NCBI GenBank assembly: GCA_020722065.1
Contig: DYLK01000016.1
Span: 1-59,607, forward strand
Length of the DNA: 59,607 nt
Origin: Melioribacter roseus
Lineage (GTDB): Bacteria; Bacteroidota; Ignavibacteria; Ignavibacteriales; Melioribacteraceae
Reading direction: 5' to 3'
The position numbers and the translations under genes were made by a program. The notes beneath the pieces were generated by a model. That model was given only the letters and a program-made list of their open reading frames with translations. It made no database searches and was not told the origin of the DNA. Positions within the stretch are counted from its first letter, which is position 1, and every line of letters starts with the position of its first letter. Positions 2,110 to 9,382 of this stretch are shown here, in pieces.

Positions 2110-2541
2110 ATGAGTTTAATATTTTCGAAAACTTGTGAATTAGCTTTTCAAGCAACTATTTTCTTTTCGACAAGGGAAGAATATTATGTTTTTACTGCAA
2201 AGGAAATTGCAGAAAAATTAGAAGTACCAAAAGAATATTTGGCGAAGGTTCTTCAGATATTAACAAAATTAGAAGTAATTGGTTCAAAAAAAGGCAAAAA
2301 TGGTGGGTTTTTTCTAAACAAAAATAAATTAAATCTAAAATTGATAGATATAGTACGTGAGGTTGATGGATTAGAAGTATTTGAAAAATGCTTACTTGGT
2401 TATCCAGGTTGTGGAGTAACCGATTACTGTCCAGTTCACGATACTTGGGGAAGAATAAGAGATGAAATTTATCAACTACTTGAAAATACAACACTCGATC
2501 AATTAGAAGGAAAAACTTACGAAAGACTTAAATTAATTTAA
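2110..2541 (+). CDS. Rrf2/NsrR-type transcriptional regulator, probable Fe-S cluster sensor
   Basis: DNA-binding repressor or activator of the Rrf2 superfamily (IscR, NsrR, RsrR relatives). The winged-helix part spans about residues 1-80 (FTAKEIAEKLEVPKEYLAKV recognition region, then GGFFL wing). Three cysteines, C94-x6-C101-x5-C107, fall where family members ligate a [2Fe-2S] or [4Fe-4S] cluster; the spacing is close to but not identical with IscR and NsrR. The gene starts 1 nt after the chemoreceptor stop, and a candidate promoter for the respiratory genes lies directly behind it. Control of those genes, for example in response to NO or redox state, is inferred from position only. Confidence 0.9.
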   Translation: MSLIFSKTCELAFQATIFFSTREEYYVFTAKEIAEKLEVPKEYLAKVLQILTKLEVIGSKKGKNGGFFLNKNKLNLKLIDIVREVDGLEVFEKCLLGYPGCGVTDYCPVHDTWGRIRDEIYQLLENTTLDQLEGKTYERLKLI

Positions 2542-2551
2542 AAAATATCTT

Positions 2552-2580
2552 TTGACTTTTATATCTTATTTGTATATTAA
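2552..2580 (+). promoter_or_regulatory. Candidate sigma70-type promoter for the NapH/HAO/NapC operon
   Basis: TTGACT at 2552-2557, 17-nt spacer, TATTAA at 2575-2580, in the only gap of the cluster (2542-2618). It would give the cytochrome genes their own transcript directly after the Rrf2 gene. No clear inverted repeat for the regulator was found; only a TATCTT-type direct repeat is visible. Confidence 0.4.
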
Positions 2581-2618
2581 AACAAGAAAAAAAAATCTGA
2601 TTTAAAAGAAAATTATAT

Positions 2619-3749
2619 ATGGCAAAAAAAATAAAATTAGACGAAATACAAAAATCCAGATTGTTGGTTCAGTTAACATTCGTTTTATTATCAATTTGGA
2701 TAGGAATTGAATTTTATTTTTTCGTTTCATTTTTAGAAAGTGGAAACTTAGTTAATTATGTCGTAAAACCTGGTGGAGTTGAGGCTTTTCTTCCGATAAG
2801 TTCATTGATGAGTTTTTATTATTTTGTTTTAACTGGAGTAGTAAATTCTTCACACCCAGCAGGTTTATTCATATTCCTTTCTGTTGTAACAATTTCGCTC
2901 GTTTATGGAAAATCATTCTGTAGTTATGTTTGTCCGATAGGTTTTATTTCGGAATACATTGGTGAATTTGGCGAAAAAATAAAGAAAAAAATATTCAAAA
3001 AACCACTAAGAAAACTCCCCCGAATTTTAGATTATCCGCTTCGAAGTTTAAAATATCTATTATTGTTTTTTTTCGCTTGGGGAATATTTTCAATGACTGA
3101 TGAAGCGTTAGAATTGTTTTTGGATAGTCCATATAACAAAATCGCTGATGTGAAAATGTGGTACTTTTTCGCCGAAATAACTCAATTTTCACTAATTGTA
3201 ATTACTATATTGTTCCTTTTATCAATTGTAATAAGAAATTTTTGGTGTAGATATTTATGTCCTTATGGAGCATTGCTCGGAATAGCCTCATTGCTAAGTT
3301 TGAATAAAATTAAAAGAGAAAAAAGCACTTGCATTGATTGCAAACTCTGCACAAAAGCCTGCCCATCATCAATTCAAGTTCATAAAGTAAATTATGTAAT
3401 TTCAGATGAATGCACAAGTTGTATGAGTTGCGTTTCTGCTTGTCCAGTTGAAAACACACTTTTCATTCAAAATATCATAACAAAGAAAAAACCAGGGAAA
3501 TATACAGTTCCAGTGTTCATTCTAAGTTTATTTTTGATTGTAAATCTTGGAGCGAGAATTTCGGGGAATTGGTTTTCGAATATTTCACCAAAAGAATATT
3601 TATTGTTATATGAAGGTATTGATACTTACGATCATATAAGAAGTGTAGAAGATGTCGAAAAATTAAACAAAGTGGCTGAAAAAAATAAGAATGTAAATAA
3701 AGAAAGCAAATCACTAAACAACAAACAAACAAACAAGGAGTCAGTATGA
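2619..3749 (+). CDS. NapH/CcoG-like membrane 4Fe-4S ferredoxin protein
   Basis: Polytopic membrane protein likely to take electrons from quinol and pass them to periplasmic cytochromes. Membrane segments appear near residues 15-36, 60-95, 143-157, 190-207 and 297-313. Two paired C-x3-CP motifs (C101/C105 and C210/C214) are the family hallmark of NapH/NosR. Two ferredoxin [4Fe-4S] motifs follow at C238-x2-C241-x2-C244-x3-C248P and C264-x2-C267-x2-C270-x3-C274P. The C-terminus beyond the last membrane helix is charged and low-complexity. The stop overlaps the start of the octaheme cytochrome gene by ATGA. NapH itself works with NapG, which is absent here, so a role as partner of the HAO/NapC pair is inferred. 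Confidence 0.88.
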   Translation: MAKKIKLDEIQKSRLLVQLTFVLLSIWIGIEFYFFVSFLESGNLVNYVVKPGGVEAFLPISSLMSFYYFVLTGVVNSSHPAGLFIFLSVVTISLVYGKSFCSYVCPIGFISEYIGEFGEKIKKKIFKKPLRKLPRILDYPLRSLKYLLLFFFAWGIFSMTDEALELFLDSPYNKIADVKMWYFFAEITQFSLIVITILFLLSIVIRNFWCRYLCPYGALLGIASLLSLNKIKREKSTCIDCKLCTKACPSSIQVHKVNYVISDECTSCMSCVSACPVENTLFIQNIITKKKPGKYTVPVFILSLFLIVNLGARISGNWFSNISPKEYLLLYEGIDTYDHIRSVEDVEKLNKVAEKNKNVNKESKSLNNKQTNKESV

Positions 3750-5089
3750 AGAAGTCAATTAGTATTCTTTCTGCATTTCTTTTTCTACTTTTTTTGGCAA
3801 ATATAAGTTATGCTGAAACATGGTATGCAAAAGGAAATGATGCGTCTGGAAAGTGTATGACATGTCATAAAGAAAAGACGCATGGTCTTTATAATCAGTG
3901 GAAATCTTCAGCCCACGCACAACATAATGTTACTTGTATTGATTGTCATAAAGCAAAAAGTGGCGATCCCGATGCATTTCAACATGAAGGTACGTTAATT
4001 GCAACTTTAGTTACACCAAAAGATTGTGGTGTTTGCCACAAAAAAGAAGCTGCAGAAGTGGAAAAATCACATCATGCAACAGCTGCTTTAATTCTTGAAT
4101 CTAATGATGCATATTTAGCACATGTTGGCGGTGGAAATCCAGTTGCAATTACAGGTTGTGAAAATTGCCACGGAAGCAAAATTGTTATCGACAAGAATCA
4201 AAAAAACAAATTATCTAAAAAAACTTTTCCAAATTCTGGGGTTGGAAGATTAAATCCTGATGGTTCAAAAGGCTCTTGTACAGTTTGTCATACACGACAT
4301 TCATTTTCAAAAGCTCAAGCTCGTCAACCAGAAGCATGTTCAAAATGCCATTTGGGACCTGACCATCCACAAAAAGAAATATATGAAGAAAGTAAACATG
4401 GTAATGCATATTTTACTCATTCAGATGAAATGAACATTAAATCTGATAGATGGATAGTTGGACTAGATTATTTTGAAGCTCCAACTTGTGCTACTTGCCA
4501 CATGTCAGCAACGACAAAGCAAAAAGTAACACACGATGTTGGTGCAAGAATTAAATGGTCAACTCGTCCAGCAATTTCGAAGAAATTAGATAATTGGCAA
4601 AAAAAACGAGCTAATATGAAAGATGTTTGTAGCACTTGCCACTCTGAAACTTTCTATAATGGTCATTTTTATCAATATGACGCTCTTGTAAATCTTTATG
4701 ATGAAAAATTTGCTAAACCAGCAACAGATATTATGAATATCATTAAAAAGAATAAATTATTAAAAGTTAAAGCTGAAATGGGAAATGAGATTGAATGGTA
4801 TTATTGGGAACTTTGGCATCACGAAGGAAGAAGAGCTCGTCACGGCGCTGCTATGATGGGTCCTGATTATACTTGGTGGCACGGTATCTATGATGTTCTT
4901 CACAATTTCTATTTTGAATTTATTCCAGCTGCAAGAGCTTACAAAAATAAAGAAGTTAATGCTTATATCAACAAATTGTTCAAAGAAGACAAAATGCATC
5001 AGTGGTTAAGTAAGAATACACAAGATTTGAAAAAAGATATAAAATCTGGAAAACAGAAAGAGATTTACGAACATTTATTCAAACAATAA
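3746..5089 (+). CDS. Octaheme c-type cytochrome, hydroxylamine oxidoreductase (HAO) family
   Basis: Periplasmic multiheme redox enzyme with a signal peptide (residues 1-23, cleavage after SYA). Eight CXXCH motifs start at C37, C64, C94, C138, C178, C198, C248 and C295. Order and surrounding motifs (QARQPEACSKCHLGPDHPQ, APTCATCHMSAT, VTHDVG) match the HAO family and not NrfA, which has a CXXCK heme. Family members oxidise hydroxylamine or hydrazine when a Tyr cross-links the catalytic heme, or reduce nitrite/hydroxylamine to ammonium when it is absent (epsilon-HAO of Campylobacter). A Tyr at 375 in MMGPDYTWWHG lies in the C-terminal helical part; whether it aligns with the cross-linking Tyr cannot be settled by eye. 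Translation is coupled to the upstream gene by ATGA. With a quinol-dehydrogenase-like gene after it, a reductive role is the better guess. Confidence 0.9.
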   Translation: MKKSISILSAFLFLLFLANISYAETWYAKGNDASGKCMTCHKEKTHGLYNQWKSSAHAQHNVTCIDCHKAKSGDPDAFQHEGTLIATLVTPKDCGVCHKKEAAEVEKSHHATAALILESNDAYLAHVGGGNPVAITGCENCHGSKIVIDKNQKNKLSKKTFPNSGVGRLNPDGSKGSCTVCHTRHSFSKAQARQPEACSKCHLGPDHPQKEIYEESKHGNAYFTHSDEMNIKSDRWIVGLDYFEAPTCATCHMSATTKQKVTHDVGARIKWSTRPAISKKLDNWQKKRANMKDVCSTCHSETFYNGHFYQYDALVNLYDEKFAKPATDIMNIIKKNKLLKVKAEMGNEIEWYYWELWHHEGRRARHGAAMMGPDYTWWHGIYDVLHNFYFEFIPAARAYKNKEVNAYINKLFKEDKMHQWLSKNTQDLKKDIKSGKQKEIYEHLFKQ

Positions 5090-5101
5090 GTGAGTAGTAT
5101 T

Positions 5102-6604
5102 ATGAATCTTAATAAGAAATATCAAAAATTTCTTAAGAGTATTTCAATTAACAAATTTGCAAAATATGGGGTGATACTTATGGTATCATCCTTTATTATT
5201 TTCTTTGTTTTAGAATTTTTGCGATTTGTTGGAATACTTGAAAGTGCTTTAGTTGGATTATATTCTTATCTCTCTTCACCTACTTTGTTTGTAATTGGTC
5301 TCTTGTTAATTCCTTTTGGTTGGTATAAAGAAATGAAATTAACGGGCAAACCACTTAAAGAATTAATTTCAAGTAAATTTGATGACACAGAAACAAGCGG
5401 AACCTTTTTTGGTTCTAAACTTTTTTTAACACTTTCTGGCACTGTTTTAGCAAGTGTTATTTTTCTTGCTTTTGCCAGTACTAGAATGTTAAGTTTTATG
5501 GAAGAACCAGTTTTTTGCGGAACTGCTTGCCATTCAACAATGACACCTGAATGGACAACTTACCAAGAATCGCCACACAGTCGAGTTCGCTGTGTTGATT
5601 GCCACGTTGGCGAAGGAGTTGGTGCATTAGTAGATTCCAAAATTAACGGTACTTGGCAGATGATTTCTGTTTCACTTAATTTGTATGAAAAGCCAATTCC
5701 CACACCAGTTCATAATTTACGACCTTCTCGTGAAACTTGCGAGAAATGTCATTGGCCAGAAAAATTCTACGGAAATCGTTTGAAAACAATTACAAAATAC
5801 GATTTTGATGAATTTAGTACTCCAAAATACACAACGCTTAGTCTAAAAATTGATTCTGGTGAAAAGACGGGTGTTTCAGGAATTCATTGGCATGTAAACA
5901 AAGATATTAAAGTTACATATTCATCAATTAATGATAAACGAGAAGAAATTCTTTGGGTAAAAGTTGAAGATAAAAAAGGTAACATCAGAGAGTTTAAAAA
6001 TAAAAATTATGTAAATCAATTTGCGGATACTGATGCTGACGAACGTGTAATGGATTGCGTCGATTGTCATAACAGAGCAACACATATTTATGAAAATCCT
6101 GAAAAGGCAATAGACCAAAGAATTGCAACTGGTTTATTAGATAAAAGATTGCCATTTATTAAACGAGTTGGATTAGAAGCAATTACAGGTTCATTTGCAG
6201 ATAAAGAATATGGATTAAAATTTGTGAAACAGCATGTTGAAAGTTTTTACAGCAAAAATTATGCATCAACATGGATTGGATTTTCTGAATCAATTGATAA
6301 AGCAGTAAAAGTATTACAATCAGTTTACAACAGAAATATTCATCCAGAAATGAATATTGATTGGGGAACATATCCTAATCATATCGGACATGAAAAAGAT
6401 GGCGGTTGCTTCCGTTGTCATAATAATGATATGGTTGATAACAAAGGGAAAGCAATACCTTATGATTGTACTACTTGTCATTCAATTCTTGCTTATGATT
6501 CCAAAGAACCTTATCAATTTTTAAGTTCTAAGGTTAGTGATGTAGCAGATTCTTCTCTCCACAAATATTTACAGACCGAGTTTTTGAATAGCATCCAAAA
6601 GTAA
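5102..6604 (+). CDS. NapC/NirT-family multiheme membrane cytochrome c (likely electron donor to HAO-like enzyme)
   Basis: Membrane-anchored quinol-oxidising cytochrome. Three hydrophobic segments lie in the first 130 residues, then the periplasmic heme part. Numbering from a GTG at 5090, heme motifs are an unusual C143-x3-CH (CGTACH) plus CXXCH at C168, C217, C323, C440 and C460, giving six probable hemes, more than tetraheme NapC/NrfH. I start at the ATG at 5102 because GTGAG lies 7 nt before it, while the in-frame GTG at 5090, directly after the HAO stop, has no ribosome site. In Campylobacter-type HAO systems a NapC-like HaoC neighbours HaoA, so this is the likely equivalent. The gene is followed by a hairpin terminator. 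Confidence 0.88.
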   Translation: MNLNKKYQKFLKSISINKFAKYGVILMVSSFIIFFVLEFLRFVGILESALVGLYSYLSSPTLFVIGLLLIPFGWYKEMKLTGKPLKELISSKFDDTETSGTFFGSKLFLTLSGTVLASVIFLAFASTRMLSFMEEPVFCGTACHSTMTPEWTTYQESPHSRVRCVDCHVGEGVGALVDSKINGTWQMISVSLNLYEKPIPTPVHNLRPSRETCEKCHWPEKFYGNRLKTITKYDFDEFSTPKYTTLSLKIDSGEKTGVSGIHWHVNKDIKVTYSSINDKREEILWVKVEDKKGNIREFKNKNYVNQFADTDADERVMDCVDCHNRATHIYENPEKAIDQRIATGLLDKRLPFIKRVGLEAITGSFADKEYGLKFVKQHVESFYSKNYASTWIGFSESIDKAVKVLQSVYNRNIHPEMNIDWGTYPNHIGHEKDGGCFRCHNNDMVDNKGKAIPYDCTTCHSILAYDSKEPYQFLSSKVSDVADSSLHKYLQTEFLNSIQK

Positions 6605-6611
6605 TTAAAAG

Positions 6612-6647
6612 AAAACCTTCCTCGAATTTTTTCTTGGAAGGTTTTAA
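6612..6647. terminator. Hairpin terminator between convergent cytochrome and lepB genes
   Basis: Perfect 10-bp stem AAAACCTTCC (6612-6621) / GGAAGGTTTT (6636-6645) with a 14-nt loop, A-run before and T-run after, so it could serve both strands. Confidence 0.75.
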
Positions 6648-6711
6648 TTTTAATTGAGTAAAATTTATTTATTCAGAATAGTAACAAAATTCAATTCAAT
6701 CAACTAACATA

Positions 6712-7575
6712 TTAATGAACAATTTTACCTATTCTGCTCCAACGAATAGAACTAAATAACGCGATAGGTTCTGAAAATGGAATTTCTTGTGGCCACGACC
6801 AATAAATCATCCACGCTTGACCAACAATATTTTCGCGAGGTACAAATCCCCAAAATCTGCTATCGGCACTATCATCTCTGTTGTCGCCCATCATAAAGTA
6901 ATAATCTTGTGGAATTGTAAAAGTTTCTGCGATTTCTCCGTCAATTTTAATTTTGTTCCCATAAATTGTTACTACATTTCTTCCGTAATGACGATTGATT
7001 AAAGTTCTGTAAGTTTCAATATTCTCGAGTGTTAACTTAACAATATCACCTTTTTTAGGAATGACAAGCGGTCCGTAATTATCTTCATTCCAGCCTGAAT
7101 TTTTTGGGAAAATATATGGCATTGAAAAACCAGCAGGAATTGGCATTTGTTTTTTATATTGAATGAAAGGTGGAATCCAGATTTCTTTTCCGTTAATAAA
7201 TACAACTTGGTTTTTAATTTCCAAAGTATCGCCAGGTAAACCGATTAATCTTTTCACATAACTCATTACAGTTGTTGAAATTAATGCATCTCTATCGCCT
7301 GGATAATCGAATACAACAATATCAAATCTTTCAGGCTCACGTATTCCTGGGACTTTGAAATAAGGCAAACGGATGTCAGTATATGGGATATTTCTTGGAG
7401 ATGAAGAACCGTAAATAAATTTATTTACAAATAGGAAATCACCTACAAGAATTGTTTTTTCCATTGAACCAGTTGGAATTTTTGAAGTTTCCAAAATAAA
7501 AGATTTAATTAATATTGCTGCAAAAACAATAATTAATAGGTTTTTGATGGAGATTAATATTCGTTTTAAGTTCAT
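6712..7575 (-). CDS. lepB: Signal peptidase I
   Basis: Inner-membrane serine/lysine protease that removes signal peptides of exported proteins. From the chosen start the protein has 287 residues: an N-terminal membrane anchor (about 10-28), the catalytic Ser in PTGSMEKT (box B, Ser near 37), the general-base Lys in YVKRLIGLPGD (box D) and the GDNRDDSADSR box E. The frame stays open 24 codons further upstream into lepA, but the ATG at 7573-7575 leaves a 13-nt gap to the lepA stop, has a purine-rich AAGAGAAA before it and matches the usual N-terminus. Probably one transcript with lepA, as in many bacteria. Confidence 0.95.
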   Translation of the reverse strand: MNLKRILISIKNLLIIVFAAILIKSFILETSKIPTGSMEKTILVGDFLFVNKFIYGSSSPRNIPYTDIRLPYFKVPGIREPERFDIVVFDYPGDRDALISTTVMSYVKRLIGLPGDTLEIKNQVVFINGKEIWIPPFIQYKKQMPIPAGFSMPYIFPKNSGWNEDNYGPLVIPKKGDIVKLTLENIETYRTLINRHYGRNVVTIYGNKIKIDGEIAETFTIPQDYYFMMGDNRDDSADSRFWGFVPRENIVGQAWMIYWSWPQEIPFSEPIALFSSIRWSRIGKIVH

Positions 7576-7588
7576 TAGTTTCTCTTTT

Positions 7589-9382
7589 TTAATCATCAAT
7601 TTGAAGTATAGATAAAAACGCTTCTTGAGGGATTTCGATATTTCCAACTTGTTTCATTCGTTTTTTCCCTTCTTTTTGTTTTTCAAGAAGTTTACGCTTT
7701 CTGGTAATATCGCCACCGTAACATTTTGCAAGAACATTTTTTCGCATGGCTTTTATATTTGTTCTAGCTATAACTTTGTTCCCAATTGAAGCTTGGACAG
7801 CTATTTCAAATAATTGCCGTGGAATTAAATCTTTTAATTTTGCGGTAACTTTTCTGCCCCAATCAAATGCTTTTTCTCGGTGAACAATTACTGATAGTGA
7901 ATCTACAGTATCGCCATTTAACATTATATCAAGTTTAACTAAATCAGAAGGACGATAACCAATAAATTCATAATCTAAAGAAGCATAACCACGGGAAATA
8001 GATTTTAATTTATCATAAAAATCGAAAATCACTTCGGAAAGAGGAAATTCATATTGCAAATCTGCTCTTGTTGAATCAATATAACTCGTATTTTTATAGA
8101 TTCCTCGTTTTTCCATAGCCAATTTCATCAAACTACCAACATAATCGCTTGGTGTAACAATTTGTGCTTTAATATATGGTTCTTCAATTCTGTCAATTTC
8201 CATAACATTTGGCATATCAGCAGGGTTATCAACAATTAGTTGAGTCCCATTTTTTTTATAGATAATATATTCAACGTTTGGTAAAGTTGTAACTATACTC
8301 TGATTGTATTCACGTTCCAATCTTTCTTGCACAATTTCCATGTGCAACATTCCCAAAAAACCACAACGAAAGCCAAACCCCAATGCTGCCGATGTTTCAG
8401 GTGTGAAAACCAAAGCCGAATCGTTTAATCTAAATTTTTCTAAAGCATCACGTAAATTTTCAAAATCTTCAGTGTTTGTTGGATAAAGTCCAGAATATAC
8501 CATCGGTTTTATTACTTGATAACCAGGAAGTGGATTTTTAGCTGGGTTTTTAAATGTAGTTATTGTATCGCCAACTTTTGTGTCGTGAACGTCTTTAATA
8601 CTTCCAATAACGTAACCAACATTTCCAGCTGAAATTTCTTTTTGTGGAATTTTCTTTAACCCGAGAATTCCAACTTCTTCTGCCAAAAAAGTTCGATTGT
8701 GTGCAAAAAACTTAATTTGATCTTTCGTTCTTAATATTCCATTCTTTACTCGGATGTAAGCTATTGCTCCGCGATACGAATCAAATATAGAGTCAAATAT
8801 CAATGCTTGAAGTGGAGCTTCGGGATCGCCGACTGGTGGGGGAATTTTTTGAACAATTGCTTCAAGAATTTCTTGAATTCCAATTCGTTCTTTGGCACTT
8901 GCATGAATAATATCTTCCTTTTTGCAACCAAGTAAATCCATAATTTGTTTTGATACAACTTCCACTTGTGCACTTGGTAAATCAATTTTATTCAAAACTG
9001 GAATTATTTCCAACCCAGCATCAAAAGCAAGATAAAGATTGCTTATTGTTTGAGCTTCAACACCTTGTGCAGCATCTACAACAAGAAGTGCACCTTCGCA
9101 AGCAGCAAGTGAGCGTGAAACTTCATAAGTAAAATCTACGTGTCCGGGAGTATCAATTAAATTTAAAATGTATTCATCACCATCAATTGACTTATAATTC
9201 ATTTGAATTGCGTGTGATTTTATTGTGATTCCTCGTTCTCTTTCTAAATCTAAATCATCTAAAAGTTGATTTTTAGCTTCTCGCTGGGAAATTGTTCCAG
9301 TAAATTCTAACAAGCCATCAGCTATTGTGGATTTTCCATGATCTATATGTGCAACAATGCAAAAATTTCTAAAATTCTTCAT
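7589..9382 (-). CDS. lepA: Elongation factor 4, ribosome back-translocase
   Basis: Translational GTPase acting on the ribosome. At 597 residues it has the normal length. The G domain starts with AHIDHGKST (P-loop, about 10-18), then [11 protein letters not shown] (G3) and NKIDLPSA (G4). Domain V and the LepA-specific C-terminus are present ([19 protein letters not shown]). The protein starts [16 protein letters not shown] as expected. It is first of a two-gene unit with lepB. The 223 nt upstream (9383-9605) contain no recognisable gene. Confidence 0.97.

Follow-up and report, generated by a model that had tools for sequence, protein, structure and literature searches.

The 59,607-nucleotide stretch analysed here (positions 1 to 59,607 of contig DYLK01000016.1, assembly GCA_020722065.1, a genome of the Melioribacteraceae within the class Ignavibacteria; hereafter the window) encodes, close to its start, an Rrf2-family regulator, a NapH-like membrane protein, an octaheme cytochrome (OCC) of the hydroxylamine oxidoreductase (HAO) family and a six-heme membrane cytochrome homologous to ImcH (ImcH6). 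We consider it probable, at roughly 0.7, that these genes constitute an Rrf2-controlled, quinol-fed periplasmic module for the reduction of nitrite, hydroxylamine and/or nitric oxide (NO). The role in nitrite or hydroxylamine reduction or NO protection that an earlier note on this DNA had suggested is supported by neighbouring genes and by a palindrome shared among relatives, not by activity, and on this basis the OCC probably reduces a nitrogen oxide. The elements concerned are:

2110-2541, + strand: Rrf2-family regulator of 143 amino acids with the cysteines C94-x6-C101-x5-C107 (PF02082, 89 bits; TIGR00738, 92 bits at a cut-off of 73.3)
2577-2606, no strand assigned: candidate Rrf2 operator, the best matrix match of the window, with the ATCTGATT half-site intact and the other arm degenerate
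2619-3749, + strand: NapH-like membrane ferredoxin-type protein of 376 amino acids with two CX3CP and two [4Fe-4S] motifs (TIGR02163 and Fer4 matches)
3746-5089, + strand: OCC of the HAO family, 447 amino acids, with eight CxxCH, a signal-like N-terminal segment (by eye), M370/W378 and D206/H207 (PF13447, 100 bits)
5090-6604, + strand: ImcH6, six-heme membrane cytochrome of 504 amino acids and probable quinol oxidase, with CX3CH and five CX2CH (GTG start, or ATG at 5102)

All four genes are present, open and in tandem on the + strand, as previously described. The napH and occ frames overlap by 4 bp and occ abuts imcH6 without a gap, so that these three genes are probably co-transcribed as a single transcript. 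The source genome is a draft of 2.38 Mb in 69 contigs, listed as 100 % complete.

Assignment of the OCC to the HAO family is borne out by the PF13447 match, the eight heme motifs and the fold alike. The nearest solved structure by sequence is the OCC of Ignicoccus hospitalis (IhOCC, 4qo5; E 1.3e-43, or 2.9e-74 with a profile), and Foldseek with an AlphaFold2 model of the window protein (mean pLDDT 87.8) likewise retrieved 4qo5 at 4.1e-17. A VIA structure comparison covering Foldseek's candidates gave Z 27.5 for this pair, with a root-mean-square deviation of 3.4 over 372 residues, followed by kustc0458 (6h5l, 21.6), HAOs (20.4-21.6) and hydrazine dehydrogenase (HDH, 19.5), while NrfA and ONR (Z 9-11) and OcwA (9.1) share the general fold only. 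For all this likeness, IhOCC is an archaeal protein of 26-32 % identity, and a profile alignment places Phe at its counterpart of Trp378; it is not known to carry the cross-link and reduces nitrite and hydroxylamine.

Two alignments with six HAO reference sequences (from a Betaproteobacteria order, 84-95 % identical to a Nitrosomonas HAO stretch) bear directly on the chemistry. The cross-link Tyr of the HAOs (in WTYTEGWGP; Tyr in 6/6) corresponds to Trp378 of the OCC. Tyr375, which the earlier note had put forward as a candidate for this residue, aligns with Gly in all six, three residues before the cross-link position, and is thereby ruled out; an oxidative HAO or HDH of the P460 kind is ruled out by Trp378 as well. 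D206-H207 align with an Asp-His pair kept in 6/6 HAOs, which we take to be the distal pair of the active heme. The OCC moreover carries both residues of the signature given for the eHao enzymes, namely Trp at the key Tyr position (W378) and Met eight residues earlier (M370) (PMC8940962). Because Trp378 takes the place of the cross-link Tyr and Met370 lies eight residues ahead of it, the OCC is, by its sequence, of the reductive rather than the oxidative type, in keeping with the original suggestion. Across 94 OCC rows, M370 is found in 93/93 with a residue at this place and W378 in 91/93 (Phe in the other two), a conservation that is partly a matter of selection, as the 80 named loci (of 576 matches) were found by two peptide patterns, one of them spanning M370-W378.

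The membrane partner, introduced in the earlier note as a NapC-like quinol oxidase, turned out to be a six-heme ImcH homologue, not a tetraheme protein like HaoC or NrfH. Its N-terminal region matches NapC/NirT at 36.9 bits, and its first heme motif, CGTACH, is followed by five CxxCH. ImcH homologues are described as proteins of ~500 residues with three N-terminal transmembrane helices, one CX3CH and 5-9 CX2CH (PMC6295460), and the window protein agrees with this description in length, in heme motifs and in its helices, predicted at 22-46, 53-85 and 110-137 from a model with a mean pLDDT of 71.5. A partner of the NrfH/HaoC type was rejected since the protein is longer and ImcH-like. The seven-heme homologues listed for the class that are without OCC linkage are 32-40 % identical to ImcH6 over ~450 residues, and a homologue from a Geobacter metagenome-assembled genome (MAG) is 37 % identical. 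In a quick ImcH tree of 53 rows, which omits the ImcH of L056 because the gene call fused its frame, the window protein belongs to a set of 23 rows with SH-aLRT 100; this comprises 20 rows labelled as OCC-linked, L139 (which is OCC-linked too), L130 and L134. All 21 OCC-linked rows have six heme motifs, as compared to seven in the 31 other rows counted.

The pairing of OCC and ImcH6 extends far beyond the class. In a quick OCC tree of 100 rows, the 22 OCCs immediately followed by ImcH6, that of the window among them, all fall within one clade of 36 rows (SH-aLRT 100), long branches being flagged in rows outside it. L040, which is the same contig as L022, was removed from the OCC counts, and the pairing count excludes 8 clade loci and 12 outside loci where no ImcH6 was seen and less than 1.5 kb follows the OCC. 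On this basis, ImcH6 directly follows the OCC in 22 of 28 testable clade members, and outside the clade an ImcH homologue above 300 bits does so in 0 of the 38 testable loci (of 50); one outside locus, L107, has an ImcH 1.9 kb upstream of its OCC, likewise with seven hemes. Going by the record titles, the pair occurs in seven named phyla (Ignavibacteriota, Bacteroidota, Zixiibacteriota, Calditrichota, Neomarinimicrobiota, Myxococcota, and Acidobacteriota), which does away with the idea of a route confined to a single phylum, and additionally in a GN15 MAG and two MAGs without phylum assignment. The 36-row clade as a whole adds Gemmatimonadota, Electryoneota, Delongbacteria, and Thermodesulfobacteriota. 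Judging from titles among the matches listed and from passages naming both proteins, the ImcH-OCC pair is not described in the literature searched.

Further evidence comes from the company of the NapH-like protein in relatives. In the window, the NapH-like ferredoxin protein before the OCC is as announced, with two CX3CP motifs (by eye) and Fer4 matches; its TIGR02163 match of 80.6 bits stays under the cut-off of 213, and no NapG is found in the operon. NapH homologues (E <= 1e-40) occur in 132 of 294 class genomes, and 66 distinct loci were considered (60, mostly from the top of the homologue list, plus 7, minus the duplicate L206, identical to L032). Rrf2 lies directly upstream of NapH in 32 of these, and NrfH/NrfA within two genes downstream in 24. 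Where neighbours were identified, which was the case for part of the set, Pfam points to a Cu-oxidase/cytochrome c protein, read as NirK, near Rrf2-NapH in L232 and L218, the former also with a ScdA_N/hemerythrin protein (RIC) and a hemerythrin, and to a NorB-type protein near that of L260; by similarity, 15 NirK-like and 18 RIC-like genes are present in 79 class loci. The Rrf2-NapH unit of the class thus precedes varied nitrogen-oxide genes, that is, NrfHA, NirK with RIC, or OCC-ImcH6, and in L223 (genome G110) the order NapH-NrfH-NrfA-OCC-ImcH6 forms one run. Two Zixibacteria loci show related arrangements, namely Crp-ferredoxin-NapH-Hcp-OCC-ImcH6 (MAG L044) and Crp-ferredoxin-NapH-DUF438/hemerythrin-DUF1858-porin-OCC-ImcH6 (L041), and NapH also stands directly upstream of an OCC outside the clade (L025). 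For Melioribacter roseus, the published account lists Rrf2, a five-transmembrane electron-transfer protein, NrfH and NrfA under successive locus tags and states that the organism may use nitrite as acceptor (PMC3534657); the five-transmembrane protein would be of the same NapH type.

The regulator itself carries three Cys, as the earlier note had it, and these are of the Fe-S-binding (NsrR/IscR-like) kind. Their spacing recurs in 35 of 41 Rrf2 homologues of the fetched loci, the other 6 being without it. By its Rrf2 domain with three Cys the protein qualifies as NsrR-like, but at 41.4 bits it stays well below the 182 asked for by the NsrR equivalog of NCBIfam. Loci of the class share the palindrome AATCAGAT-N6-ATCTGATT. 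When up to 79 stretches lying upstream in NapH/Rrf2 loci (the window being one of them) were searched for inverted words, TCAGA-N8-TCTGA appeared in 25, as compared to at most 5 stretches for any word in 20 block shuffles. The exact core was located at 41 separate positions, spread over 35 of the 79 class loci (903 kb), vs 0.96 expected from base composition. A weight matrix derived from class sites, the window excluded, yields 72 site rows with scores >=18 in the class loci (71 places, L206 = L032 being counted twice). Placed within 350 bp, sites of this strength were assigned to napH (37), rrf2 (26), ferredoxin (13), and duf438 (3), to hcp, ric, nirK, hemerythrin, and an ImcH gene (1 each), and to unlabelled genes (27). 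Within 200 bp upstream, such sites precede 20/39 rrf2, 10/15 ferredoxin, and 23/66 napH genes, vs 17/536 other genes, 0/28 nrfH, and 0/19 occ; even at >=12.5, none lies within 200 bp of nrfH (28), nrfA (26), porin (19), or ImcH6 (4) genes in the class loci. The seven-heme ImcH locus L151 has one site scoring 19.6, and outside the class L070 has sites of 17.1 and 20.9 by napH and a divergent eight-heme gene.

The window site at 2577-2606 is an independent test of this palindrome. It scores 16.6, with the next match in the window at 8.7 and the best of 20 shuffles at 12.0, which ranks napH first among the 56 window genes, and its centre lies 27 bp before the napH start. Because of this position, Rrf2 may be expected to bind at the palindrome. 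The published NsrR motif, gATGyAT-N5-ATrCATc (PMC1274295), differs from that of the class, and judged from titles among the matches listed the palindrome is not described in the literature searched.

In its own genome, the window OCC is the only PF13447 protein according to a single-family search. No PF02335 match exceeds the cut-off for NrfA (the only weaker match is again the window OCC), and family searches returned neither Prismane/Hcp nor any PF00384 protein, hence no Nap or Nar. One ImcH homologue is present (E <= 1e-40), as is one COX1 protein of 740 amino acids with a NorB cytochrome-c-like domain that adjoins a second Rrf2 (L264 1420-4134). A 253-residue frame with the only Cu-oxidase_3 match (21.9 bits, cut-off 21) may represent a NirK.

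Taking as a starting point what the DNA itself carries, i. e., the genes present, the heme and Cys motifs, the lack of the cross-link Tyr, the recurring OCC-ImcH6 pairing, and the palindrome with its neighbours, we propose that ImcH6 would draw on the quinol pool of the cytoplasmic membrane and pass the electrons via its hemes to the soluble OCC. There, at a heme lacking the Tyr cross-link, nitrite, hydroxylamine and/or NO would be reduced, with ammonium the most likely product, as in eHao. Rrf2 would sense NO or Fe-S damage and control napH-occ-imcH via the palindrome before napH. NapH, in what is the least certain step, might offer a second quinol-linked electron entry or act as an accessory.

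Several points weigh against this proposal. The comparison genomes are mostly draft MAGs, and support for the substrate is contextual rather than enzymatic; outside the Campylobacterota lineage, most members of HAO-family clades I and II are described as having no known function (PMC9213671). With no PF00384 match in the genome, there is no nitrate reductase to supply nitrite. ImcH6 is absent in 6 of the 28 testable clade members (L052, L053, L058, L062, L066, and L068), and the seven-heme paralogues L130 and L134, from one Neomarinimicrobiota genome, are members of the OCC-linked ImcH clade whose flanks (1.5 kb) contain no OCC. As to the linkage of all four genes expected in the earlier note, the OCC-ImcH6 part is conserved and the remainder is weak: NapH lies within 6 kb of the OCC in 10 of 36 clade members (window, L021, L022, L023, L041, L044, L046, L048, L070, and L139 via L223) and Rrf2 in 3 (window, L022, L047), counts that are lower bounds because many loci are short, and a single relative genome (L022) was seen to have all four in the order of the window. 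Rrf2 and NapH are associated with the OCC more loosely than ImcH6 is. The palindrome invites similar caution. In the window one of its arms is degenerate, and a consensus match with 3 mismatches, as at 2581-2602, is expected 1.29 times per window and alone not significant; the loci were mostly picked for carrying NapH, so that enrichment near napH is partly built in. Sites before occ score 15.0 in L023 and 12.9 in L070, and none >=12 is found before occ in L021, L024, L025, and L139 or in the genome's own nitric oxide reductase locus L264. Finally, the authors of the M. roseus study see in its Rrf2 a possible regulator of the nos cluster close by (PMC3534657).

What such a module would be for can be read in more than one way. 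Somewhat short of even odds, in our estimate, is that it disposes of NO, hydroxylamine or nitrite produced by neighbours, with no energy gain of importance, a variant of the proposal above whose odds overlap with it. The missing PF00384 protein, and hence Nap and Nar, fits such a detoxifying role, as do the genes for RIC, hemerythrin, Hcp or a NorB-type protein found in some relatives next to NapH or Rrf2-NapH, and the NorB-type gene next to the second Rrf2; however, ImcH homologues have been proposed to be respiratory quinol oxidases (PMC6295460), and the related M. roseus, equipped with NrfHA, is the one credited with possible nitrite respiration (PMC3534657). A sulfur compound such as sulfite or tetrathionate as substrate of the OCC is unlikely. 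This was proposed, from distribution alone, for a Desulfobacterota group of HAO-family clade I (PMC9213671), which again counts against our reading, and 8 of the 36 clade rows form a Thermodesulfobacteriota/Myxococcota/Delongbacteria branch without an observed ImcH6, a point that the available sequence allows to be judged for 4 of these 8; yet in relatives both the neighbours and the genes bearing the site are concerned with nitrogen oxides, and M370/W378 is the signature of the nitrite-reducing eHao (PMC8940962).

It appears quite improbable that the OCC and ImcH6 belong to an extracellular electron-transfer chain with an incidental or secondary nitrogen context. ImcH is known from just this process (PMC6295460), a 16-heme protein that includes a domain of the cytochrome b561 type lies near the L022 cluster, and the cell-surface cytochrome OcwA reduces nitrite and hydroxylamine as well as iron oxides (PMC7096707), but the OCC retains the D206/H207 pair of HAO, has IhOCC and HAO-like enzymes as its nearest relatives, and is accompanied in relatives by genes of nitrogen-oxide turnover. 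Hardly credible, in turn, is a true HAO that oxidises hydroxylamine and feeds electrons into quinone via ImcH6 in reverse: family membership speaks for it, while Trp378 stands in place of the cross-link Tyr, and ImcH homologues are considered quinol oxidases only (PMC6295460). We thus retain the quinol-fed reductase module as the preferred interpretation.

The eHao/HaoCA system of the Campylobacterota, reportedly treated by Haase in 2017, has the gene order haoC-haoA, with haoC first, and an OCC followed by its quinol oxidase is the reverse of this, as the earlier note had pointed out. The likeness it drew to HaoA/HaoC holds for the reductive signature and fails for the tetraheme partner of the NapC/NrfH family. 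The Campylobacterota system, viewed as a reverse hydroxylamine:ubiquinone redox module (PMC3701875, PMC8940962), and the window share an OCC of the HAO family that has Trp in place of the key Tyr and Met eight residues earlier, a quinol-oxidising membrane cytochrome as partner, and, in one Zixibacteria relative (L044), Hcp too. In contrast, the window partner is a six-heme ImcH homologue after the OCC instead of a tetraheme HaoC before it, NapH and Rrf2 are added, and family searches of the genome returned neither PF00384 nor Hcp.

The NrfHA sets found behind Rrf2-NapH in the class, apparently also in M. roseus (PMC3534657), share the leader genes and quinol-fed periplasmic nitrite reduction (predicted for the window), but have a pentaheme NrfA and a tetraheme NrfH where the window has OCC and ImcH6. 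Geobacter ImcH resembles ImcH6 in its ~500 residues, N-terminal membrane helices and leading CX3CH (PMC6295460), and differs by having seven rather than six heme motifs, by lying on the other side of the supported branch, and by being associated with extracellular electron-transfer cytochromes instead of an OCC. Caldithrix and Deferribacter, lastly, have eHao-type OCCs proposed to reduce nitrite without NrfA, but according to the reports Nap stands beside the OCC there (PMC5317091, PMC6896113); in Caldithrix, electron entry is proposed via Rieske/cytochrome b or alternative complex III, and the Deferribacter cluster includes a decaheme protein, with no ImcH reported for it.

More broadly, an ImcH branch may have been recruited from extracellular electron transfer, or have split before it, to become the quinol oxidase of OCCs in at least seven named phyla, with the Rrf2/AATCAGAT-N6-ATCTGATT slot of Ignavibacteria-type bacteria taking NrfHA, NirK-RIC and OCC-ImcH6 interchangeably; to this wider scenario we give even odds. 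If it is true, some ImcH genes counted as markers of iron reduction are nitrogen-cycle genes, ImcH homologues should not be read as markers of extracellular electron transfer without checking the neighbouring gene, and nrfA surveys miss an ammonium-forming route in lineages devoid of nrfA. Given that the clade is supported, has a recurring partner and shares a regulatory site with genes of nitrogen-oxide turnover, its function is directly testable.

Two further features flank the genes:

195-2108, + strand: Cache-domain methyl-accepting chemotaxis protein (PF00015, PF08269, PF17200)
6612-6645, + strand: possible terminator 3' of imcH, a T-rich 10-bp perfect inverted repeat read directly in the sequence

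The chemoreceptor gene ends 1 bp before rrf2 and is possibly co-transcribed with it, although it lies outside the conserved unit; in L022, the sole relative with the same four genes, it does not adjoin Rrf2. The inverted repeat may close the operon.

The loci of relatives hold additional multiheme and accessory genes. Near OCC-ImcH6, L022 encodes (5583-7982) an 800-residue protein that combines 16 heme motifs with a domain of the cytochrome b561 type (Pfam), and L238, from the same genus, has a 16-heme frame of 801 amino acids near Rrf2-NapH. A third eight-heme type of ~420 amino acids (PF13447) stands beside NapH or Rrf2-NapH in L070 (4418-5683, with a palindrome in front) and L262 (3104-4357), and L254 has an eight-heme frame of similar length. 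Seven-heme proteins of ~540 amino acids beside Rrf2-NapH in L262 (6874-8508; PF02335, 193 bits) and L257 (7486-9102) are possibly an unusual NrfA relative. In L232 (6138-8987), the NirK-like gene is followed by genes of the FGE-sulfatase and SCO1/SenC types, and some other loci have genes of comparable length at this place. Another, longer OCC (~537 amino acids) lies behind Rieske- and cytochrome b-like genes in L030, L031, L032, and L034, sets that resemble the published gene arrangement of Caldithrix and that, by eye, also include a molybdopterin-type gene and one for a tetraheme protein.

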